From Phycisphaeraceae bacterium (GTDB taxonomy: Bacteria > Planctomycetota > Phycisphaerae > Phycisphaerales > Phycisphaeraceae): DNA of 64,000 nucleotides. Location of the stretch: assembly GCA_028284155.1 (NCBI GenBank), contig JANQSF010000006.1, positions 1 through 64,000 on the forward strand, given 5' to 3'. A program made the translations under genes and the position numbers. Shown here piece after piece: positions 8,715 through 22,206 of this stretch (its first letter is position 1; each line of letters begins with the position of its first letter). The notes under the pieces were generated by a model, which did not search any database, was not told the origin of the DNA, and saw only the letters and a list, made by a program, of their open reading frames with translations.

Positions 8715-11060
8715 ATGATCACTAATCGGATCAATCCCGCGCTTGTGCTTGTGACCGTGGCCGTTCTGACGCCGTCGCTGATCGGCGCGCCGACAAAGCC
8801 CGCGCCGGACCAGACCGCACACGCCGACGCCCACCGCGGCCCGCGGCAGGTCGCGATCGAGCGGTATTTCCGCGACGAGCTGTGGGCCAAGGTCGTCGAG
8901 AGTACCTGCCTGAACTGTCACACCGCCAACGGCGACGCCAACGACAGCGGCCTGATCCTGCAAGACCCGGCGAAACTGACGCCAGACAAACGGTCGTCGG
9001 CGGTCCACGCGAACCTCGCGGCGTTTCACAAGGTCGCGACAGCACTAAAGAAGGGTGAGTCGGTCGTCCTGCTGAAGGCGCGCGGCAAGCTCGCGCACGG
9101 CGGTGAGGTCGTTTTGAAACCCGGGTCGACGCGGTACCGCATCCTCGAAGGGTTCGTACATCGCGTGACGGGCGACGGGCACGCCCCGACCAAGGACGTA
9201 GACGCTTACGACCCGCCCGCGTTCTTCGACGGCGTCGTGATGCTCGACCCGCAGCGTTTGCTGCGCCGCGTGACGCTCTCGCTGGCGGCGCGGCTGCCCA
9301 CGGAGGCTGAACGCGCCGCCGTCGCCAAGGGCGGTCTCGACGCGCTCGACCCAATCCTCGACCGGATCATGACCGAGGAGGCGTTTTATGACCGGCTGGC
9401 TGAGGGTTTCAACGACATCTTCCTGACGCGTGGGTACGACGGTAACGGCGAGGAAGCGTTGTCGTACAACCACTTCGGCAAGACCCGCCTGTGGTATCAG
9501 AAGTACGACCTCAGCCATATCAAGGACGAAAAGGAGCGGAAGCAGGCCGGCTACAAGCTGGCACGCGAGTACCGCGAGGCGCTGCTGCGCGAGCCGACGG
9601 AACTCATCAAACACATCGTCCGCAACGGCCAGCCGTTCACCCAACTGGTCACGGCCGACTACATCATGGTGTCGCCCTACTCGTCGCGCGGGTACGGCGT
9701 GTTCGACGAGGTCAAGGGCAAGTTCAAGAACGTGGACGACCCGTACGAGTACGTGCCCGTTCGGCTCAAGGCGTTACAGCACCGCAACGGACGCGACCAC
9801 CAGGTCACGCCGACCGGCTACTTCCCACACGCCGGCATCCTCAGCACGTTCCAATACCTCAAGCGGTACCCGACGACGGAGACCAACCGCAACCGCCTGC
9901 GTGCGCGGATGTACTACCAGCACTTTTTGGGCGTCGACGTGATGGCGCTCGCGCCGCGGGTCAGCGACGCCGCGGCCGTGTCAGCCAAGTACGACAACCC
10001 GACGATGCAGGCCCCGGACTGCGTCGTCTGCCACAAGTCGGTCGACCCGCTGGCGGGCCTGTTTCAGGACTATCAGAACCGCACGAACGACTACGGCCCG
10101 CGCAAGGAAGGTTGGTTCGACGACATGTTCGGCCCAGGTCGGGAAGGCGTCGACCTGCCGGCGGAGGACCGTTGGCGCGTCCTGCCCTGGCTCGGCGAGC
10201 AGACGGCCAAGGACCCGCGGTTCGCCGTGGCGATGGTCGAGCATGTCTGGACGATCATGACCGGCCGAGACGTCCTGCTGCCGCCGATGGACATCGAAGA
10301 CCCGGTCTTCACGTCGAAGCGCCGCGCGTACCTCATGCAGCGCGACGCCATCGAGGTGATCGCCGCGCGGTTCGCCGCGGACGGCTTCAATCTCAAGGAC
10401 GTTTTCAAGGCGTGGGTGAGGTCGCCGTTCTACCGGGCTGACGGCCTGGCAACCGTGGTCAAGCACCCGCGCCGCCGGGCGGAACTGGCTGACCTCGGGC
10501 TCGTGCGCATCCTCAGCCCCGAGCAGTTGGAGCGCAAACTCGAAGCGGTGTTCGGTAAGCGATGGGGTCAACTGGAACGGCAGACGGCGATCCTGTACGG
10601 CGGCATCGACTCGAAAGAGATCACCAAGCGCATCGACTCACCCAGCGGCGCGATGGGCGCGATCATGCGCATCATGGCCAACGATATGGCGTGCAAGCAC
10701 GTCGCGGTTGACCTGACGACCCCCAAAGACAAGCGACGCCTCTTCCCCAACATCGAGATGGACGTTATCCCCGGGTCGAGCGCCGAGGCGGACCAGCAGA
10801 TCCGCGAGGCGATTGTCCACCTGCACGCGCACGTACTGGGGCGAACGGACAAGATCGACGACCCGGAGGTCGAACGGACGTATCGCCTGTTTGCGGGCGT
10901 TGTGAAAGACGCCAAGGCCAAGGGGCGTTACGAAAAGTTGGAGAGCTACTTCTGCCGCGGCGCGGACGGGCAGCGCGTGCCCGACCCGCATTACACGCTG
11001 CGTGCGTGGCGTGCGGTGGTGACGTACCTGCTCCGGCAGCACGAGTTCCTCTACGAGTAA
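8715..11060 (+). CDS. Planctomycete cytochrome-type secreted protein (DUF1549/DUF1588-like)
   Basis: The 781-residue product has a signal peptide (residues 1-24), a CxxCH heme motif (CLNCH, 65-69) and a second at CVVCH (436-440) followed by SVDPLAGLFQDY. The segment HAGILSTFQYLKRYPTTETNRNRLRARM just before the second motif is the pattern seen in DUF1588/DUF1585-type modules of planctomycete cytochromes. The exact Pfam assignment is an inference. Such proteins are exported and almost always precede a DUF1501 gene, as here with a 12-bp gap, so the two probably work together. The biochemical function of the family is unestablished. Confidence 0.75.
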   Translation: MITNRINPALVLVTVAVLTPSLIGAPTKPAPDQTAHADAHRGPRQVAIERYFRDELWAKVVESTCLNCHTANGDANDSGLILQDPAKLTPDKRSSAVHANLAAFHKVATALKKGESVVLLKARGKLAHGGEVVLKPGSTRYRILEGFVHRVTGDGHAPTKDVDAYDPPAFFDGVVMLDPQRLLRRVTLSLAARLPTEAERAAVAKGGLDALDPILDRIMTEEAFYDRLAEGFNDIFLTRGYDGNGEEALSYNHFGKTRLWYQKYDLSHIKDEKERKQAGYKLAREYREALLREPTELIKHIVRNGQPFTQLVTADYIMVSPYSSRGYGVFDEVKGKFKNVDDPYEYVPVRLKALQHRNGRDHQVTPTGYFPHAGILSTFQYLKRYPTTETNRNRLRARMYYQHFLGVDVMALAPRVSDAAAVSAKYDNPTMQAPDCVVCHKSVDPLAGLFQDYQNRTNDYGPRKEGWFDDMFGPGREGVDLPAEDRWRVLPWLGEQTAKDPRFAVAMVEHVWTIMTGRDVLLPPMDIEDPVFTSKRRAYLMQRDAIEVIAARFAADGFNLKDVFKAWVRSPFYRADGLATVVKHPRRRAELADLGLVRILSPEQLERKLEAVFGKRWGQLERQTAILYGGIDSKEITKRIDSPSGAMGAIMRIMANDMACKHVAVDLTTPKDKRRLFPNIEMDVIPGSSAEADQQIREAIVHLHAHVLGRTDKIDDPEVERTYRLFAGVVKDAKAKGRYEKLESYFCRGADGQRVPDPHYTLRAWRAVVTYLLRQHEFLYE

Positions 11061-11072
11061 GAAAGGTCGGCC

Positions 11073-12356
11073 ATGCGTCGTGACTTTCTCAAGGTGTGCG
11101 GTTGGGCGGGCATGGGCCTGGCGATGCCGGTCAGCCAATCGAACCTCGTGCGCGCCGAGCCCAAGCGGCCCGAGCCGTACGCGGGCCCGTACTACGCCGT
11201 GTTCAACGCGTCGGGCGGGTGGGACACGACGTACCTGATGGACCCGAAGGGCGTCAACGGCATCAACCGCCTATATAAGGACGGCGACATCGTCACGCGG
11301 GGCAAGCACGTCTTCGCGCCCAACGCCAAGCACATCGAAGTGGGCATGAGCAATGAGGACTTTTACAAGCGGTACGGCAAGGAATTGCTCGTCCTGAACG
11401 GCCTGGATTACTCGGTCAACAACCACTCGCCGTGCAAACGCTACATGGCGACGGGCAAGCTGGACAGCCACGCGTACCCGACGTTCGCCGCGCTCGTCGC
11501 CGCCTGCCGCAACCCGCACAGCCCGATCGCATTCCTGACATTCGGCAACTACTCAGCTACGGGCAACCTCGTGCCGATGTCGCGCGTGCCGTACATCCCG
11601 TCGCTGCAAAAGCTGGCCAACGCCGACGGCGTCAACGGTTCGTCGCGGCACATGTATCACGATGACTTTGTCCAGGACCGCATTGAGGCGACGCTGGCTG
11701 AGCAGGCTGAGGCGCGCGTCTCGCAAGCCCGCCTGCCGCGCGTCGAGCAGGCGCAGAGCACGCTCTACGCGGCGCAACTGAATTCGCAGGCGCTCAAGCG
11801 TGTGACGCCCCACATCCCGAAAGACACGCCCAAGGAACGGTTGGCCCGGCAGGCCGAGATTGCGTTGGCGTCGTTCAAGGCCGGCGTTTGCGTGTCCGCC
11901 AACCTCACGATGGGTCAGTTCGACAGCCACGCGAACAACGACCCCGACCAGATGCGACTCATCCCCGAGCTGTTGTCCGGCATCGACCACATGCTGAGGC
12001 GGGCTGAGGAACTGGGCATCCGCGACAAGCTCGTCGTCGTCATGCAGAGCGAGATGGGCAGAACGCCCAACTACAACAAGGGCAACGGCAAAGACCACTG
12101 GTCGATCGGATCGATCATGTTCATCGGCCCCGGCATCAAGGGCGACCGCGTGGTGGGCGCGACGGACGAAAAACAGTTCCTCGTGCCGATCGACCCGAAG
12201 ACGCTCAAGACCGTGAAGGAAGGCGGCGTGCGCGTCCGACCCGAACACATCCACGCGGCGTTGCGCGCCAAGGGCGGGTTGGCCGACGACGCGTTCAGCA
12301 AGCAGTACCCGCTCGACGTGCCCAATGAAGAACGGATCGACGGTCTGTGGGGATGA
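11073..12356 (+). CDS. DUF1501-family exported protein
   Basis: The 427-residue product starts with MRRDFLKVCGWAGMG, a twin-arginine-type export signal. The body shows the DUF1501 / alkaline-phosphatase-like fold: GGWDTTYLMDP near residue 48, GQFDSHANNDPDQ near residue 285, VVMQSEMGRTPNYN near residue 323 and a KDHW segment after it. The start at 11073 has AAAGG upstream. It lies 12 bp behind the cytochrome-type gene, forming the common planctomycete pair. The substrate is unknown; a secreted hydrolase or phosphatase-like role is an inference. It ends 18 bp from the convergent beta-barrel gene. Confidence 0.85.
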   Translation: MRRDFLKVCGWAGMGLAMPVSQSNLVRAEPKRPEPYAGPYYAVFNASGGWDTTYLMDPKGVNGINRLYKDGDIVTRGKHVFAPNAKHIEVGMSNEDFYKRYGKELLVLNGLDYSVNNHSPCKRYMATGKLDSHAYPTFAALVAACRNPHSPIAFLTFGNYSATGNLVPMSRVPYIPSLQKLANADGVNGSSRHMYHDDFVQDRIEATLAEQAEARVSQARLPRVEQAQSTLYAAQLNSQALKRVTPHIPKDTPKERLARQAEIALASFKAGVCVSANLTMGQFDSHANNDPDQMRLIPELLSGIDHMLRRAEELGIRDKLVVVMQSEMGRTPNYNKGNGKDHWSIGSIMFIGPGIKGDRVVGATDEKQFLVPIDPKTLKTVKEGGVRVRPEHIHAALRAKGGLADDAFSKQYPLDVPNEERIDGLWG

Positions 12357-12374: not shown

Positions 12375-13790
12375 TCAGAATCGAAACCCGATCTCCAACC
12401 GCGCGCCCCACCCGGGGTCGCGCGACTCTTCCAACGTTCCGAACGCGTCGACCTGCAGGACCCAGTGTTGGCCAATCGCCTGTTGGTATCGGCCGCCCAG
12501 GCCGAGCATCGCGTCCGTGTCGCCTTCCGTACCGTCGCGGGCGCCCAGTTCCACGACGACCTGCTTGCGTTTGTTTTCGAAGAACATCTGGTAGCCCACC
12601 GCGCCACCGACCGACTCATCTGCCCGGTTGCCCAGCGGCGCGCCGTATCGGCCGAGCTCGACCGCGGCGAACAGGATGCCCGTGCGACCCAGCGGCCCGC
12701 CGCGGTCGGGGGCGCGGGCGGCTGACGTGAACTCGTCGATCCCCCAGAACGCGTTGAAGTACAACAGGTCGTCTGTGCCGTGCGGCGACCAGGAAAGTTC
12801 GCCGAACAGCAGGTGCCCGCTGGCCACGTCGGGCGAGTCGTCGCGCATGGCCTGCGACCCGAGCACGCGACCCGTCAAGTTCAACTCGCCCCACCGCTTG
12901 ATGCCGCCGACGCCCCAGAAGAAGCCGCTGGTCAGCTCGTCCTCGTCGTGGATGTAGACGAAGTCGGCCTCGACCGTCGCGGTCGACAGGTCGGCGTGCG
13001 TGAGCAGCGCGATCAGGTGCTCGTCGTTGTTCTCTTCGTTGTGGCCGCGGTGGATCTCGTTCCAGCCGTAAAGAAACGTCGCGCGGAGGTTGCTTACGTC
13101 GTCGATCAGGATGTTGTTGCGGACGACGCCCACCGCGTCGATCGTGTCGTTAATCAGCAGCCCGTCCTGCGCCAGGATGGGTTGACGCCCGACCGCGAAG
13201 CCCCAGTCGAGCGAGTGACGATCCTCCGGGTCGGCGTTGGCGAAGATCTCGCCGAAGTCGCCCTCGAAAAAAAACGTCTCGATCTCGATGTTGAACGACT
13301 CCTGCCAACCCTCGTCCGGGTCGGTGAAGTTGTAACCGGTGACCTTGTTGTCGTCGTCGACGGGGCGGACGCCGACGAGCAGGCGTTCGGTCGCGGAGAA
13401 CTGCAGGTTCGCGAACACGTCGAGCCGGTTCGCCCATTCGGCCCGCTGCTCGACGCCATCGTCGAACGTCTGCAACGCCGAGCGGAAGTTGCCGTAGATC
13501 AGGAGGCTCGGCTGCCAGACCGCGCCCGTCGGCAACTCGAAGCCTTCGTCGATCGGCCCGCTGGAAAGAAACGGGTTGCCCAGTTCGACCACGGGCTTCG
13601 GCCGAACGACCTGCTCGGCGGTGAGCAGCGGGATGACTTCGTCGCTGATTCGGCTGGGCGACTCGCCGGCCGGCTTGTCGGTCGAGTACATGTCGCGCTG
13701 CGGTTCGGCGTGGATCGACAGCGACGCGCAACCGACAAGGCAGAGCGCGACGAACCACTGGCCAAGGCGGCGAACGGGCGCCGTGGTCAT
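12375..13790 (-). CDS. Predicted outer-membrane beta-barrel protein
   Basis: The 471-residue product has an N-terminal hydrophobic signal containing a lipobox-like LVGC (Cys21) and an alternative signal-peptidase I site after IHA. The body is a long series of alternating polar/aromatic beta strands (for example LLVGVRPVDDDNK, LGSQAMRDDSPD, VVVELGARDG) and ends in GARLEIGFRF. A C-terminal Phe preceded by alternating hydrophobics is the hallmark of BAM-inserted barrels. The start is the ATG at 13790, which overlaps the stop of the upstream pentaheme cytochrome by 4 bp (ATGA), so the two are translationally coupled. No specific porin family is recognised. Confidence 0.65.
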   Translation of the reverse strand: MTTAPVRRLGQWFVALCLVGCASLSIHAEPQRDMYSTDKPAGESPSRISDEVIPLLTAEQVVRPKPVVELGNPFLSSGPIDEGFELPTGAVWQPSLLIYGNFRSALQTFDDGVEQRAEWANRLDVFANLQFSATERLLVGVRPVDDDNKVTGYNFTDPDEGWQESFNIEIETFFFEGDFGEIFANADPEDRHSLDWGFAVGRQPILAQDGLLINDTIDAVGVVRNNILIDDVSNLRATFLYGWNEIHRGHNEENNDEHLIALLTHADLSTATVEADFVYIHDEDELTSGFFWGVGGIKRWGELNLTGRVLGSQAMRDDSPDVASGHLLFGELSWSPHGTDDLLYFNAFWGIDEFTSAARAPDRGGPLGRTGILFAAVELGRYGAPLGNRADESVGGAVGYQMFFENKRKQVVVELGARDGTEGDTDAMLGLGGRYQQAIGQHWVLQVDAFGTLEESRDPGWGARLEIGFRF

Positions 13791-15706
13791 TCCGCGTCCC
13801 CCGACTGCCCCGTGACCGTGACCTGCGTCCGCCAAAGCACTTCGTGGCCGGCGACGACGGCCTCGGCCACGTCGCGTGCGGACATGCCGTAATCGAAGCC
13901 GACGTCCTTGATCTCGTTAATCAAGTTGACCGGCACCATCGCGGCCTTGAGTTCGACGGTGATCGTCAGCGGCGGCTGCGCGCCCTTGAACTTGCCGAGG
14001 TCGACCTCGTACCGCGCGATACGCGACGCGCCGGGGTTGATGCTCATGCGGTGCTTGCGCGCGCCGTTGGGCTGACCGGCCAGGATGTTCGACCGCGTCG
14101 GCGGACGCGCGAACGGCAGCGGCGTGGTCGATTGGTTGACGGACAGCACCTTCTCGCGCTCGCCGCCGCGCAGGTTGCGGATGAGGAACCGCCCCTGCAG
14201 GTTGAACAACTGCTTGTCCAGCGGCAGTTCGCCATTGTGGACATAGGCAGAGTGCAGGTCGCGCACGTCGCCATTGGGGTCGAGATCGCCCGACTCGAAC
14301 ACGACCCGCTCGCGCGGGTCCGTCACTTTGACGTAAAGCCAAACCAGCCGGTCGGCGTCGAACCCGGTGGGCACGGCGTGGCCGGTCGTGCCGTTGGCGA
14401 CCTCGGCGCGGAAGCGCAGCGTATGACCCTTCAACGGCTCGACCTCGACGTCGCGCAGCACGTAGCCGCGGCGCAGCAGTTTGAGCCGGTCCTGGCGGGC
14501 CTCTTCTAACAGTTCGAGGTTGGCGTCCACGATCGCGCGGGCTTTGCGGCGTTGTTCGGGCGAACGCCAGCGCTGCGGGAACTTGCTGTTGTCGGCCACG
14601 TCCTTCTCGAATGCGTCCGTCCCCCAGCCCGCTTCATGGTCGAACTGCAACCACTGGCGGATCGTTGCGAAGCCCGTGGCTTTGGGGTCGTCCTTGTCGG
14701 CTTCCTCCTTGATGGCGTTGCGTGTCACGGGGAACAACGCCGGGTGAACGACCGAATAGTCCGGCCCGACGATCATGTGATTGGTCAGTTTGCGCGGCTT
14801 GGTCCATTCGCCGAAGACGCGTGCGGCCGGCCCCCACTCGTAATTCGTCTTTTCATCGCCGGTGAAGATGCCCGGCTCTTTGCCCATGTGGCAGTCCTGG
14901 CAACTCACGCCGGCCTTGGCTGCGGGCGACGACTTGTAGTGGCTGAACGCCTCTTCCAAACGGAAGCCGTTGATAAACGTCACGTCGTGACACGTGCCGC
15001 AGAAACCCGGCTGCGTCAATTGGAAGAACCGGTTGGCCTTGCCGTGAATCTTTCGGCCGCGCTCGTCGGGGTTGTCGGTCACCTCGCCGTCCTTAACGAG
15101 GCGGTCGATAGCGGCCGAGTCGCCCGTCGGGCCCGCGATCGGGTCGGTGATCGGCCCCTGGCGGATGGCGATGCGTCCGCTGACCTTGCCGTAGGGTTGC
15201 GTCGGGCGGTGGCAGACGATGCAGGTGACGCCCTCGCGCGACACGGCGTGGCGGTCGATGTTGCTGGCCACGACCGGCTCGCCCATCTCCATGCCGACCG
15301 GCGTGTGACACCGGATACAGAAGTCGCCGAACGTGCCGTTGGTGAGCTTGAGAATCTTGGCGTGCATCGAGTTGAACACGGGGCTCAACTGCGCATAGGC
15401 GTGTTGCGAGGCCGACCACTGGCGGAAGTGCGTCGGGTGGCAGACGGCGCATTGCTTGGCAGACGGGTAGCGGTCGCGCACGTACATGTCGGCGTGCATC
15501 GCGTCGATTGCGTCGGGGTCGAGTTCGTCCGGGTCTTTGTCGGCGTCGTCTTTGGCGTCGGGCTGGGCGGCGTCGGGTTGGACAGGCCCCGATTCGACCT
15601 GCGCAAACGCCGGACGGTTATCGGCCGGCCAGGCGAGGACAGCCGCGCAGACGACGACCGCCGCAATCCAAAGCGCTCGACAAAGGGACGGTTTGATGGC
15701 TGGCAC
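13787..15706 (-). CDS. Secreted pentaheme c-type cytochrome (c554-like)
   Basis: The 639-residue product has an uncleaved-looking or cleavable hydrophobic leader (residues 9-36, AFAQ). Five CxxCH heme sites follow at residues 86-90, 130-134, 162-166, 236-240 and 269-273. The spacing, with SQHAYAQLSP after the first site and DCHMGKEPG at the fifth, resembles cytochrome c554/NrfB-type proteins. The C-terminal 300 residues lack hemes and read as beta-rich (LRFRAEVANGTTGHAVPTGF, then a late ITVELKAAM). Start is a GTG at 15706. It shares a 4-bp overlap with the downstream beta-barrel gene, suggesting a periplasmic/surface electron-transfer module. Substrate unknown. Confidence 0.85.
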   Translation of the reverse strand: MPAIKPSLCRALWIAAVVVCAAVLAWPADNRPAFAQVESGPVQPDAAQPDAKDDADKDPDELDPDAIDAMHADMYVRDRYPSAKQCAVCHPTHFRQWSASQHAYAQLSPVFNSMHAKILKLTNGTFGDFCIRCHTPVGMEMGEPVVASNIDRHAVSREGVTCIVCHRPTQPYGKVSGRIAIRQGPITDPIAGPTGDSAAIDRLVKDGEVTDNPDERGRKIHGKANRFFQLTQPGFCGTCHDVTFINGFRLEEAFSHYKSSPAAKAGVSCQDCHMGKEPGIFTGDEKTNYEWGPAARVFGEWTKPRKLTNHMIVGPDYSVVHPALFPVTRNAIKEEADKDDPKATGFATIRQWLQFDHEAGWGTDAFEKDVADNSKFPQRWRSPEQRRKARAIVDANLELLEEARQDRLKLLRRGYVLRDVEVEPLKGHTLRFRAEVANGTTGHAVPTGFDADRLVWLYVKVTDPRERVVFESGDLDPNGDVRDLHSAYVHNGELPLDKQLFNLQGRFLIRNLRGGEREKVLSVNQSTTPLPFARPPTRSNILAGQPNGARKHRMSINPGASRIARYEVDLGKFKGAQPPLTITVELKAAMVPVNLINEIKDVGFDYGMSARDVAEAVVAGHEVLWRTQVTVTGQSGDAE

Positions 15707-17753: not shown

Positions 17754-19226
17754 TCATGCCAACACATCATTGACCACATGTCCATGCACGTCGGTCAGAC
17801 GGTAGTCACGTCCTTCAAAGAAGTACGTCAACCGCTCGTGATCGAACCCGAGCAGGTGCAGCAGCGTCGCCTGCAGGTCGTGGATGTGGACCTTGTCGCG
17901 CGCGACGCTGAATCCCAGGTCGTCGGACGCGCCGTGCGTGTAGCCCGGCTTCACACCGCCGCCAGCCATGAACATCGTGAAGCAGTCGGGGTAGTGGTCT
18001 CGCCCGAGTACCTTGCCCCGGCTCGTTCGACCTTCGCGGAACGGCGTTCTGCCGAACTCGCCCGACCAAAGCACCAGGGTCTCGTCGAGCAGGCCGCGTT
18101 CTTTCAGGTCACGCAGCAGCGCGGCCACAGCCTTGTCCATCGGAGCGCACTTCTTGGTCAGCCCGTCGCGGATGTCTTCACGCGGGTTGGTGCCGTGGAA
18201 GTCCCAGCCCCAGTCGAATAGCTGCACGTATCGCACGCCCTGCTCGACGAGTCGTCGGGCGAGCAGGCAGTTGTTGGCGAACCCGCCCGCGCCGGGTTGC
18301 GCGCCGTACGACTCAAGTGTCGCAGCCGACTCGCGCGTGATGTCCATCACCTCGGGCACGGACACCTGCATGCGATAGGCCAACTCGTACTGCGCGATGC
18401 GCGTGATCGTTTCAGGATGCCCAAGGTCGTTGGCCTGGATCTCGTTCAGGTCGCGCAGCGCGTCGAGTGACACGCGACGCAGGTCGCGGTCCATGCCCTT
18501 GGGGTTGGTGACGTACAGGATCGGGTCGCCCTTGCTGCGGCACTGCACGCCCTGAAAGACACTGGGCAGGAAGCCGCTACCCCACGCGCTCTTACCAGCC
18601 GACGGGTTCGTCCCGCCGGAGAGGAGCACGACATAGCCGGGCAGGTTTTCGTTCTCCGAACCGAGGCCATACGTCACCCACGCGCCGGTGGCCGGCCGAC
18701 CCATGCGCGGTGAGCCGGTGTAGAGCATCATCTGCGCGGGGGCGTGGTTGAACTGGTCGGTGTTCATCGACTTGATGAAGCACAGGTCGTCGGCGACTTT
18801 CGACAACTCGGGCAGCGCGTCGGACATCGTCGCGCCGCTGCTGCCGTGCTGCTTGAACGTGCGCGGCGTGCCGAGCAGTTTCGGCGTGCCGCTGGTGAAG
18901 GCGAACCGCTTGCCCTTGATGAACGCGTCCGGCGCGTTCTGGCCGTTGAGGCGGACCAGTTCGGGCTTGTAGTCGAAGAGGTCCAGGTGCGGCGGCGAGC
19001 CGGCCATGTGCAGGTAGATCACCCGCTTGGCTTTGGGCGCGTAGTGCGGCGCTCGCGGCGCAAGCGGGTTGACCACGCCGCCCCCCGGGCTCGCCGCGCG
19101 GGCCCGTTCGGATGCCATCAGCGACGCCAACGCCATCCCGCCGACACCGACCTGACACTTGCGCAGGAAGTGTCGCCGTGTGAAGTGCTGGGCTTGTGAC
19201 TGGGTTGCCTGTGTATGGATATTCAC
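17754..19226 (-). CDS. DUF1501-family exported protein (full-length)
   Basis: The 490-residue product has a Tat-type signal (TRRHFLRKC near residue 16, then a hydrophobic stretch ending ARAA). Family hallmarks follow: HMAGSPPHLDLFDYKP near residue 72, NTDQFNHAPAQMMLYTGSPRMGRP near 160, GWDFHGTN near 333, LWSGEFGRTPF near 378, and GRDHYPDCFTMFMAGGGVKPG. This matches the large planctomycete DUF1501 type. It lies 31 bp after the PSCyt1/DUF1549/DUF1553 gene on the same strand, the typical two-gene operon. A sulfatase-like fold is inferred; no activity is established. Confidence 0.9.
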   Translation of the reverse strand: MNIHTQATQSQAQHFTRRHFLRKCQVGVGGMALASLMASERARAASPGGGVVNPLAPRAPHYAPKAKRVIYLHMAGSPPHLDLFDYKPELVRLNGQNAPDAFIKGKRFAFTSGTPKLLGTPRTFKQHGSSGATMSDALPELSKVADDLCFIKSMNTDQFNHAPAQMMLYTGSPRMGRPATGAWVTYGLGSENENLPGYVVLLSGGTNPSAGKSAWGSGFLPSVFQGVQCRSKGDPILYVTNPKGMDRDLRRVSLDALRDLNEIQANDLGHPETITRIAQYELAYRMQVSVPEVMDITRESAATLESYGAQPGAGGFANNCLLARRLVEQGVRYVQLFDWGWDFHGTNPREDIRDGLTKKCAPMDKAVAALLRDLKERGLLDETLVLWSGEFGRTPFREGRTSRGKVLGRDHYPDCFTMFMAGGGVKPGYTHGASDDLGFSVARDKVHIHDLQATLLHLLGFDHERLTYFFEGRDYRLTDVHGHVVNDVLA

Positions 19227-19257
19227 GTTCGTGTCCTCGATTACGCTTCGCGTTCAT

Positions 19258-22206
19258 TCACGGCCGAGCCAGAAACTCGTCCAGGTTCATCAGCACGTTG
19301 CTGACCACCGTCCACGCCGCCAGTTCGGCCGCGTCCGCTCCCTTGGGCAACGGACCGATCGGGTCGGTCGCCAGCGCCGTCGCGGCTTGCGGCTTGGCGC
19401 GCATCACCGACAGCACGTCCTGATACAGACCGACAAGCCGTTGCAGTTCTTTGTCTTTCGGTGCGCGGGTCAAACAAAGCTTAAATGCGTAGGTCATCCG
19501 ATCGTTCACGCTCTGCCCGCCCTCGCGGACGGCACGTCGGCCCAGCGCCTGCGCCGCCTCGACAAACACCGGGTCGTTCAAGGTCACAAACGCCTGCAAC
19601 GGCGTGTTGGTTCGCACACGCCGGATCGTGCAGACCTCCCGGCTTGTCGCGTCGAAGGTGAGCATCGACGGGTAAGGCGTCGTGCGCCGCCAGAACGTGT
19701 ACAGACCGCGGCGGTAACGGTCTTCGCCGGGGCTCGGGTCCCAATCTGTCGAGCCGCCGAACGCGGCGCGGATGCCGAGCTTTGGCTGCGGCGGGCGGAC
19801 GGACGGGCCATACATCTTGCGACTCAGGAGGCCGCTGACCGCCAACGCCTGGTCGCGGATCATCTCGGCCGACAGGCGGAAGCGCGGGCCGCGCGAGAGC
19901 AGCCGGTTGTCCGAGTCAGCCTTGAGCAGGTCGGGCGTCACGCGCGACGTTTGTCGGTACGTCGCGCTCAGCACGATCTGCTTGACCAGCCGCTTGGTGT
20001 CCCAGCCGTTTTTCATCAGGTCGACAGCCAACCAATCGAGCAGTTGCGGGTGGCTTGGCAGTTCGCCCTGCACGCCGAAGTCTTCGCTGGTGCGGACCAA
20101 GCCCTGGCCGAACAGTTGTTCCCAGTATCGGTTGACGGTGACGCGGGCGGTCAGCGGGTTGTCGTCGCTAACCAGCCAGCGCGCCAGGTCGAGGCGGGAC
20201 GGTTGATTGCCCTCGCCGGTCGCGGCGATCTTGGGGAACACGCCGGGCGTGCCGGGCGACACCTCGTCGCCCTTGACCTGGAAGTTGCCGCGCACCTGGA
20301 TGTGCGTCTTGCGCCGGCGGTTGCCGGTCAGCTCGCGCATGATCGGCGTGGGCACACCCTTGATGCCGCCGAGTTGTTTCTTCAATGCGTCGAGCTTCTT
20401 CTGCTCGGGGAATTGCAGCGTCGCGCCCGCCCCACCCGCCGCGTACTGCGCGATCGCGGCCTGCGTTTTCGCGTCGAGTTTGTCCGCCGACTTGGGCAGC
20501 GTCAACGCCAGGTCTTTGGCGAACACTTTGTCGGAATGCATGACCCAGATCGGCTGACGCATGTCATCGAGTAAAACGACGCGGTACGACTTGAGTCGGC
20601 TGGCCAAGCCGTTATCCGTCCGGTTCCACAGCACGACCTTGTCGAGCGTCACCGCCGACCCCAGATCGACCTCCCACCACGGGTTGTCCGCCTGCGCGGT
20701 GTGTGAGACCGACTTCGAGGCGGTGTAGTCGCCGTTCGTGTTGCCGTCGATCGCCAGGTGGGCCGGCCCGCCGTAGTCCGTGCTGATCTGACTCGCCTTG
20801 CCCTTGCGTGCGACGTTCTGGTCACCGATGAAGGCCTGCACCTCGGCCAGGTGCAGGAATACGCCCTTGCCCAGGTTCTCGACGCGCACGTAGCGGGTCT
20901 TGAGCGGGCCGGCCGTCGCCTTGTGCTGCGTCGGTCGGCCGCGCTTCTTCGCTTCGAGCGTCTTCTGGGCGATGATCAGCTCGAGTTCGGTGACCTGCTG
21001 CTCCAGCTTCTTGCGCTGTTCGATCTGCTGCGCGGTGTAGGTGTTCAGCGTCGGCGCTTCGTTGCCGCGGTCGGCGTCTTCCGTGTTGTTCAGGATCGCG
21101 AAGACCTCGAAATATTCGCGCTGCGAGATCGGGTCGTACTTGTGGTTGTGGCATTGGGCGCAACTCATCGTCATGCCCATCCACACCTGCATGGTCGTGT
21201 TCACGCGGTCAATGACGGCCGCGTTGCGGAACTCCTCGTCGTTCGTACCGCCCTCGCTGTTGGTCATCGTGTTGCGGTGGAATGCCGTGGCGATGAGCAA
21301 CTCGTTCGCCGCGTCCGCGTCCTTCGGCGCGGGAAGTAAGTCACCGGCGAACTGTTCGATCGTGAACCGGTCGAGCGGCATGTTCTTGTTGATCGCCGAG
21401 ATGACCCAGTCGCGATACCGCCAGATGACGCGCGGTGGGTCCTGCGCGTATCCGGCCGAGTCGGCGTACCGCGCCAGGTCGAGCCAGACGCGCGCCCAGC
21501 GTTCGCCGTAGGCTGACGACGACAACAGCCGATCGACGACCTTCTCGTAAGCGTTGTCCGACTTGTCGTTGATGAACGCCTCAGCCTCGACGAGCGTCGG
21601 CGGCAGGCCGGTCAGGTCGAGTGTGACGCGGCGCAGCCAGGTCAAGCGGTCGGCTTCGAGCGACGGCTCCAAGCCGGCGCCTCGCAGCCGGGCCAACACG
21701 AACGCGTCGATCGCGTTGCGCGGCCAAGTCTCGCCGCGCACGGGCGCGACCTTCGGCAGCGCCGCTTGCAAGGGCTTCATGTAGGCCCAGTGCTGCGCAT
21801 AATCCGCACCCTGCTCGATCCAACGTTTGAGCAGGTCGACCTCGGCTTTCGTCAGTCGTTTGCCGCTCTTGGCAGGCGGCATGCGTTCGTCGTCGTCGGC
21901 CGTCACGCGGGCGATCAACGCGCTGGCTGCGACGTTGCCCGGCATAACGGCGTGCGTGCCCTTGCGGTCGGCGATCGCCCCTTCCCGCGTGTCCAGCCGC
22001 AGGCCGGCCTTGCGGTCGTCCGGGTCGGGGCCGTGACACTTGAGGCAGTTTTGGCCGAGGATCGGGCGGATGTCGCGGTTGAAATCGACTGGAGCGTCGG
22101 CTGGCCGTCCGTCCTGAGCGGCGGCGGGCGTCACCGGCGTCGTGACCGCGATCAATAAGGTCAGAGCGGACAGGCCGGCCAGCAGTGTGTTCGGTCGGTA
22201 AGCCAT
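19258..22206 (-). CDS. PSCyt1-DUF1549-DUF1553 protein with inserted F5/8C domain
   Basis: The 982-residue product has a signal peptide (1-31), a PSCyt1 heme domain (CLKCH at 54-58, later [11 protein letters not shown]), then a DUF1549 block ([18 protein letters not shown] near 165; [19 protein letters not shown] near 243). A second CxxCH, CAQCH near 356, sits in the pattern [17 protein letters not shown]. The C-terminal DUF1553 includes [30 protein letters not shown]. Between them, roughly residues 445-570, a discoidin-like F5/8C domain is inserted ([20 protein letters not shown], then [20 protein letters not shown]), normally a carbohydrate-binding jelly roll. First gene of an operon with the DUF1501 gene; the start is the ATG at 22206. 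Confidence 0.9.

Follow-up and report, generated by a model that had tools for sequence, protein, structure and literature searches.

A pentaheme cytochrome and a porin-like barrel as the probable outer-membrane end of a PCC4-type electron pathway in a Phycisphaeraceae bacterium

In the first 64,000 nucleotides of contig JANQSF010000006.1 from a Phycisphaeraceae bacterium (assembly GCA_028284155.1), a stretch called the window here, two overlapping genes on the minus strand encode a pentaheme c-type cytochrome and an outer-membrane beta-barrel protein. With moderate confidence, we interpret this pair as the outer-membrane terminus of a trans-envelope electron pathway of the PCC4 type, in which the cytochrome would be docked beneath a barrel that admits small redox partners. 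The system is already described in outline under PCC4, a tentative name introduced by He et al. 2017 (PMC5566968). To that outline we add fold predictions for both proteins, the breadth of the system, its natural fusions, a two-module pattern among its genes, and an argument for a capped pore. The predicted folds, linkage, fusions, and partner genes were computed, and from this ground we infer the docking side, the capping, the substrate, and the direction of flow.

The gene pair and its two proteins

The features of the pair are as follows.

13787-15706, minus strand: pentaheme c-type cytochrome gene (639 amino acids, GTG start), a relative of Thermochromatium tepidum c552
12375-13790, minus strand: outer-membrane beta-barrel protein gene (471 amino acids, ATG start, C-terminal Phe), without a Pfam family
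13787-13790, minus strand: ATGA stop/start overlap (ATG at 13790-13788, TGA at 13789-13787)
13707-13790, minus strand: export signal of the barrel protein, with LVGC at residues 18-21 followed by an AxA-like SIHA/EP site (cleavage, at the slash, placed by eye)
13509-13607, minus strand: conserved segment before the barrel, residues 34-66 of the modelled mature chain, mean conservation 0.71
12615-12734, minus strand: extracellular loop 7, residues 325-364 of the modelled mature chain (40 residues)

A first-pass annotation had located the pair at 12375-15706 on the minus strand, and these limits are correct. It had also described a secreted cytochrome with five CxxCH sites, which are indeed found, beginning at residues 86, 130, 162, 236, and 269, behind an N-terminus that reads by eye as an export signal. 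The reported overlap of the cytochrome stop codon with the barrel start codon is present as listed above. A search of GTDB contigs yielded 204 confirmed barrel relatives, and all locus counts given here refer to 80 of these 204. The barrel-type terminal Phe noted in the first pass holds for the window protein, which ends in GFRF, and 72 of the 80 sampled barrels have Phe at their C-terminus.

That the second protein is a barrel, as had been suggested, is supported by structure modelling. An AlphaFold2 model of the mature window protein, made with 42 relatives (alignment A3, 42 of the 80 fetched barrels), is of good confidence (predicted local distance difference test, pLDDT, 85.8; predicted template modelling score, pTM, 0.82) and nearly all-beta. 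By our own count it has 18 strands if the interrupted stretch at residues 108-126 is taken as one. The top structural matches from Foldseek and VIA-align are OccK7, OprD, the Campylobacter MOMP, and AlgE, with OccK7 aligning over 314 residues (Z 27.4; root-mean-square deviation, rmsd, 2.8). MtrB is not among the matches listed for this model or for that of a natural fusion described below, an absence that does not count as evidence.

At the level of sequence families, Pfam returned no match for the window barrel at E 1 and none for any of the 43 alignment members at E 0.01, NCBIfam gave no match for the window protein, and neither plasmids nor PHROGs yielded a match to the barrel. Its profile gave five matches among solved structures, at E 0.58-0.96, which were taken as chance. 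Because the barrel has no Pfam match, annotation probably misses it.

Loop 7 has a conservation of 0.73, versus 0.47 for the other extracellular loops under our own assignment of topology, and in the model this suggests a selective pore. The conserved segment before the barrel might act in docking or as a plug. The first-pass annotation had offered a lipoprotein as the alternative, and the LVGC motif it relied on is present. That alternative is weak, given that a loose lipobox pattern occurs in only 10 of the 80 sampled barrels, some of them false by eye, and the lipoprotein was rejected as the general case on this count. Processing by signal peptidase I appears likelier for the family because AxA-like sites are seen by eye in many of the barrels that lack the pattern, and the export signal of the window barrel (LVGCASLSIHA/EP) is ambiguous between the two routes. 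As a separate observation, two of the sampled barrels (L096 and L106) carry a His/Asp/Gly-rich stretch after the export signal that possibly binds metal.

The cytochrome matches the Pfam family Cytochrome_C554 (E 6e-9), and its NCBIfam matches all fall far below cut-off. By eye, it divides into a heme domain at about residues 71-310 and a C-terminal beta domain at about 410-630. A profile of the window cytochrome and 22 relatives matched the T. tepidum c552 structure 5ze8 (E 3.2e-18) and also the selenoprotein MccSep (E 4e-4). Five CxxCH sites occur in 70 of 78 sampled cytochromes; three others have six, and the remaining five are cut by a contig start. Across 75 sequences (74 relatives and the window cytochrome), four His residues outside the CxxCH sites are invariant (H71, H102, H221, and H310), H443 is present in 74, and H485 and H490 are well kept (72 and 71 of 75). 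The first five of these would give each heme a candidate distal ligand, and all five hemes may therefore be bis-His.

Linkage, partner genes, and natural fusions

Whether the pair is kept in relatives was a question raised by the first-pass annotation, and the answer is that it is. In 78 of the 80 GTDB-contig loci, the gene immediately upstream of the barrel, on the same strand, encodes the cytochrome; in one of them (L085), 682 bases separate the two frames. Of the other two loci, one (L126) is a single open reading frame, and the other (L134) has a barrel frame that extends to the end of its contig. Among genomes of the same family, the barrel is matched in three of 51, the window's own included, and across the phylum in 45 of 294 (again with the window's own), at 50 places. 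A cytochrome match stands directly upstream on the same strand at 47 of these 50, a count that uses 49 cytochrome places, joins split matches, and omits four fragment rows of counted barrels. Two exceptions lie near a contig start (G068:C107 and G073:C93), and the third (G121:C37) is real. Strong cytochrome matches (E <= 1e-50) occur in 45 planctomycete genomes, 44 of which also have a barrel match. With at most four candidates scored per genome, weaker matches reach up to 170 of the 294 genomes at E 0.001 and represent other C554-like proteins.

The first pass had also proposed a planctomycete counterpart of porin-cytochrome pairs. Membership in the porin-cytochrome class stands, and restriction to planctomycetes does not, as 14 phylum-level labels, assigned by submitters, occur in a tree of 79 barrels, where 19 label changes compare with a least possible 13. 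Single placements in this tree are untrustworthy because bins can hold foreign contigs. Cultured hosts of the system include Thalassobaculum litoreum, two Nisaea, and Tistlia consotensis. Apart from these relatives, a divergent barrel-cytochrome subfamily was observed at G246:C21:126449-129848 and also, for example, in G201, G337, and G131. Its barrels are about 24-31% identical to that of the window, and in G246 it stands in tandem with the first kind.

Five further gene families recur near the pair in the 80 loci: a tetraheme C554-type cytochrome (49 loci), a decaheme cytochrome (42), a protein with cyclic nucleotide-binding (cNMP) and 4Fe-4S domains (41), a small membrane protein (39), and an NAD-binding/[2Fe-2S] reductase (37). 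Because many loci are cut, these counts are lower bounds. A common gene order is pentaheme cytochrome, barrel, reductase, tetraheme cytochrome, cNMP/4Fe-4S protein, membrane protein, and decaheme cytochrome. Tetraheme family members have four CxxCH sites in 37 of 50 cases, eight in 10, seven in two, and five in one, and 36 of 42 decaheme family members have 10. In the membrane protein, W73-H77-H91, S115-G116-G119, and W246-H250-H264 are invariant in 17 of 17 sequences, and a cNMP/4Fe-4S protein from one locus (L081) matches Fer4_11 above cut-off. No further cytochrome family recurs among the neighbors in the 80 loci, whatever its localization, which was not predicted, and no 12-heme family recurs beside the barrel there. 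Two variations on the cytochrome complement may be recorded in passing. An eight-CxxCH gene of the tetraheme family is found in L080, L088, L089, L096, L099, L101, L104, L106, L109, and L139, mostly from Acidobacteriota, and a 17-heme cytochrome gene adjoins the pentaheme-barrel pair in two planctomycete loci (L137 and L112).

The profile searches for four of the partner families covered 72 planctomycete genomes, of which 47 have a barrel match and 25 are barrel-less controls that were taken from listed genomes and are not random; the tetraheme profile was run in the window's own genome. The decaheme cytochrome was found at E 1e-15 in 32 of the 72 and in none of the 25 controls, the cNMP/4Fe-4S protein at E 1e-60 in 34 and one, respectively, and the reductase at E 1e-40 in 27 and none. 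The membrane protein was matched in 46 genomes at E 0.001, five of them barrel-less; at about 1e-20 or better, it was matched in 32, one of them barrel-less. Within the set of barrel, pentaheme, and tetraheme families, pairwise distances correlate at 0.72-0.78, and within a second set of decaheme, cNMP/4Fe-4S, membrane protein, and reductase families at 0.65-0.93; values for barrel or pentaheme against this second set are 0.38-0.60. Some correlation arises from common descent alone, and the locus sets differ between families. Judged from these distances, the system looks like an outer module and an inner module with the tetraheme cytochrome between them.

The window's own genome carries the pair on the contig designated C110 and a divergent inner-membrane half on contig C83 (L158:5865-13743). 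The C83 minus strand encodes a cNMP/4Fe-4S protein (E 4e-101), in which Fer4_11 falls below cut-off and other 4Fe-4S models score above theirs, a membrane protein with His pairs at 81/95 and 292/306 (W and SGXXG recognized by eye), and a decaheme-like cytochrome with 10 CxxCH sites. This cytochrome was missed by the decaheme profile at E 1e-15 genome-wide and matched at 7e-27 when that stretch was searched. Also on C83, in divergent orientation, is a C554-type cytochrome with three CxxCH sites and, by eye, one CX4CH site, and beyond it an NDH-2-like oxidoreductase with a C-terminal cNMP domain. The C110 pair and the C83 set would presumably work together.

Two natural fusions tie parts of the outer half and parts of the inner half to specific partners. 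In L126, from a Saprospiraceae metagenome-assembled genome, one frame of 1087 codons encodes an export signal, the pentaheme cytochrome, a linker, and the barrel. The linker has no hydrophobic stretch by eye and no second export signal, and an assembly frameshift would not have taken away that second signal. Porin-type barrels keep their N-terminus in the periplasm, and so the cytochrome of this fusion should be periplasmic. A model of the fusion (alignment A5, which combined the fusion with 10 paired rows and with 25 cytochromes and 25 barrels) reached pLDDT 84.6 and pTM 0.86 over 1042 residues. From the definition of pTM, a hand estimate gives about 0.6 if the halves were placed without confidence, and the packing of cytochrome and barrel thus seems to be predicted rather than arbitrary. 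In a structural comparison with 5ze8, the cytochrome half of the model gave an alignment of 344 of 385 residues (Z 16.8, rmsd 3.8). The second fusion, in G121:C37 (L170:3761-6394, minus strand), is a frame of 878 codons in which the reductase family comes first and the b-heme membrane protein follows; it also includes what we take to be an FHA-like stretch. Elsewhere in L170, at 9419-11695, is a barrel with about 290 extra N-terminal residues that are charged and without CxxCH, and no pentaheme cytochrome adjoins it.

Relation to known systems

The system fits PCC4 by its features, in a comparison made with the published description and not by sequence. As described, PCC4 comprises a porin and periplasmic cytochromes with 4, 5, and 10 hemes, has no extracellular cytochrome, and includes an inner-membrane protein that has two WX3HX13H motifs and SGXXG (PMC5566968). 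One subgroup has an Fe-S gene (pfam13247) upstream of the inner-membrane protein; PCC4 also includes further redox genes, and a redox gene is placed upstream of the tetraheme cytochrome (PMC5566968). The likeness includes a porin adjoining a pentaheme cytochrome that would be periplasmic, the 4- and 10-heme cytochromes of relatives with the decaheme-like and C554-type cytochromes on C83, a membrane protein with both His motifs and SGXXG (17 of 17 relatives and the window genome's copy), an Fe-S gene upstream of that protein in relatives and on C83, a redox gene ahead of the tetraheme gene in relatives, and the presence of Planctomycetes among the hosts. The window genome is unlike PCC4 in having its genes on C110 and C83 and not in one cluster, the arrangement seen in many relatives. 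Further differences from that description are the cNMP-binding domains, the 14 phylum-level labels, and the absence of the reductase family from the window genome. The hosts named for PCC4 in 2017 were Alpha-, Gamma-, and Zetaproteobacteria and Planctomycetes (PMC5566968), and the spread found here exceeds these groups.

Among the systems compared, the nearest one with experiments is the Geobacter extHIJKLMNOPQS cluster. It shares a porin (ExtI), a periplasmic pentaheme cytochrome (ExtKL), 4- and 10-heme cytochromes, and a b-type cytochrome, and it alone has a rhodanese-like protein, a 12-heme cytochrome, a Rieske protein, and selenocysteine in ExtKL; for ExtI, 12 or 21 strands have been predicted (PMC5877670, PMC6148476). 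A strain with extHIJKL alone is reported to retain 20% of wild-type Fe(III) citrate reduction, up to 50% of Fe(III) oxide reduction, and 75% of Mn(IV) oxide reduction, and mutation of extI impairs the reduction of selenite and of tellurite (PMC5877670, PMC6148476). The NCBIfam model for ExtKL scores 27 bits against the window cytochrome (cut-off 250) and finds nothing in the window's own genome, a negative that carries little weight since it also scored above cut-off in none of 14 control genomes.

Other comparisons are more distant. T. tepidum c552 (5ze8) shares the overall cytochrome fold, including the C-terminal beta domain, at 20% identity, and the text available for it mentions no barrel partner (PMC11976967). 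MtrAB, MtoAB, and PioAB likewise combine an outer-membrane barrel with a periplasmic multiheme cytochrome, but are described with ten hemes, 26-28 strands, and an inserted cytochrome (PMC7198977, PMC4245776), whereas the window pair has five hemes and, by our count, 18 strands. A porin-multiheme system described in 2017 from Verrucomicrobia differs from the five-heme pair in having eight hemes and at least 20 transmembrane motifs. The OmaB-OmbB-OmcB type is unlike it in combining an 8-heme periplasmic with a 12-heme outer-membrane cytochrome. Cyc2, whose cytochrome is monoheme, differs in heme number and in that the present proteins, except in L126, are encoded by two genes. As in L126, the cytochrome of Cyc2 is joined to a barrel, which is described as having about 17 strands (PMC10654088).

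Mechanism and rival explanations

In the mechanism proposed here, both proteins would be exported, the barrel would insert in the outer membrane, and the pentaheme cytochrome would dock on its periplasmic face. With hemes that are apparently bis-His, the cytochrome would relay electrons and not carry out chemistry. It would meet the tetraheme and decaheme periplasmic cytochromes, which would in turn connect to the two-b-heme inner-membrane protein linked to the cNMP-binding 4Fe-4S protein, and in many relatives the NAD(P)H/[2Fe-2S] reductase would stand at the inner end. A small soluble redox partner, such as a metal ion, a chelate, or an organic shuttle, might enter the lumen and exchange electrons at its inner mouth.

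The width of the barrel bears on whether the heme domain could lie inside it. By hand estimate, an 18-stranded barrel is about 33 Å across the backbone and leaves about 20 Å. In published descriptions, the 26-stranded MtrB opens to the periplasm with a width of about 30 Å, and MtrA measures 30 x 35 Å across, so the OccK/OprD-like barrel looks too narrow to sheath the pentaheme domain as MtrB sheaths MtrA. The narrow lumen, the small-substrate porin fold, and the conserved loop 7 favor a selective pore with the cytochrome below, which the cytochrome probably caps. These dimensions and this fold make it rather improbable that the pair is an MtrAB-like insulated wire, with the pentaheme domain inside the barrel, a heme chain crossing the membrane, and direct contact with minerals or electrodes. 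Even so, published porin-cytochrome clusters include members with 18-22 predicted strands and 5-14 hemes, and the apparent packing of the two halves in the L126 fusion would suit a wire as well.

The OccK/OprD-like fold and conserved loop 7 might instead serve a terminal enzyme, for which the barrel would import a particular small oxidant or oxyanion that the cytochrome would then reduce catalytically in the periplasm; the selenite and tellurite defect of the extI mutant offers a parallel. We regard this as a poor prospect because the five additional His residues, invariant or nearly so, point to hemes without open sites. If the second protein were an ordinary porin or a lipoprotein with an incidental cytochrome neighbor, that would account for the LVGC motif and the generic porin fold. 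Given the close linkage, the fusion, and the lack of conservation of the lipobox, such a coincidence is highly improbable.

Outward electron flow is more likely than inward flow. The arrangement of reductase and b-heme protein resembles that of NOX and FRE proteins, in which flow is outward, and both the occurrence of the reductase and its joining to the b-heme protein in the G121 fusion favor a flow that begins at NAD(P)H. Flow in the opposite sense is compatible with the same anatomy: extracellular Fe(II) or Mn(II) would be oxidized, and the electrons passed to quinone. He et al. draw the pathway in this way, from an extracellular donor to quinone, and report PCC4 in iron-oxidizing Zetaproteobacteria and in filter and pyrite communities (PMC5566968). 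In view of the NOX/FRE-like features, inward flow is judged unlikely, although it is the most serious of the rivals.

Several observations weigh against a PCC4-type outward pathway with a capped pore, beginning with the inward scheme of He et al. just mentioned. The ability of extHIJKL, a pentaheme cytochrome and porin set as described, to support some reduction of solid Fe(III) and Mn(IV) is not an obvious property of a capped small pore. The window's own genome has a divergent partner set, located on a separate contig from the pair, and the profile that detects the reductase family in 27 of the 72 genomes did not find it there. At the threshold used, 20 of the 47 barrel genomes also have no reductase match. 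One genome (G299) has a strong cytochrome match and no barrel match, another (G073) has a barrel match with only a weak cytochrome match, and the barrel in G121:C37 has no adjoining cytochrome. Finally, the tetraheme cytochrome correlates with the inner set at 0.53-0.71, similar to some pairs within that set.

A broader claim would extend the favored mechanism to PCC4 as a whole, as an NAD(P)H-fed, NOX/FRE-like export machine of more than 12 phyla that ends in a new kind of porin-cytochrome unit, an 18-stranded selective pore capped by a pentaheme cytochrome. This generalization is tentative, and we find it somewhat doubtful. If a capped pore is correct, porin-cytochrome pairs are not all insulated wires. 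A simple gene pair that in one case forms a single fused chain could serve to test a capped pore against a wire.

Around the pair in the window are genes of other kinds, with a DUF1501 protein and a GDSL/3-keto-disaccharide hydrolase protein (both by Pfam) as flanking neighbors. PSCyt/PSD-like and DUF1501 genes lie on either side, at 8715-12356 and 17754-22206, and for those at 8715-11060 the PSCyt/PSD-like or DUF1501 matches are all below the Pfam cut-offs.

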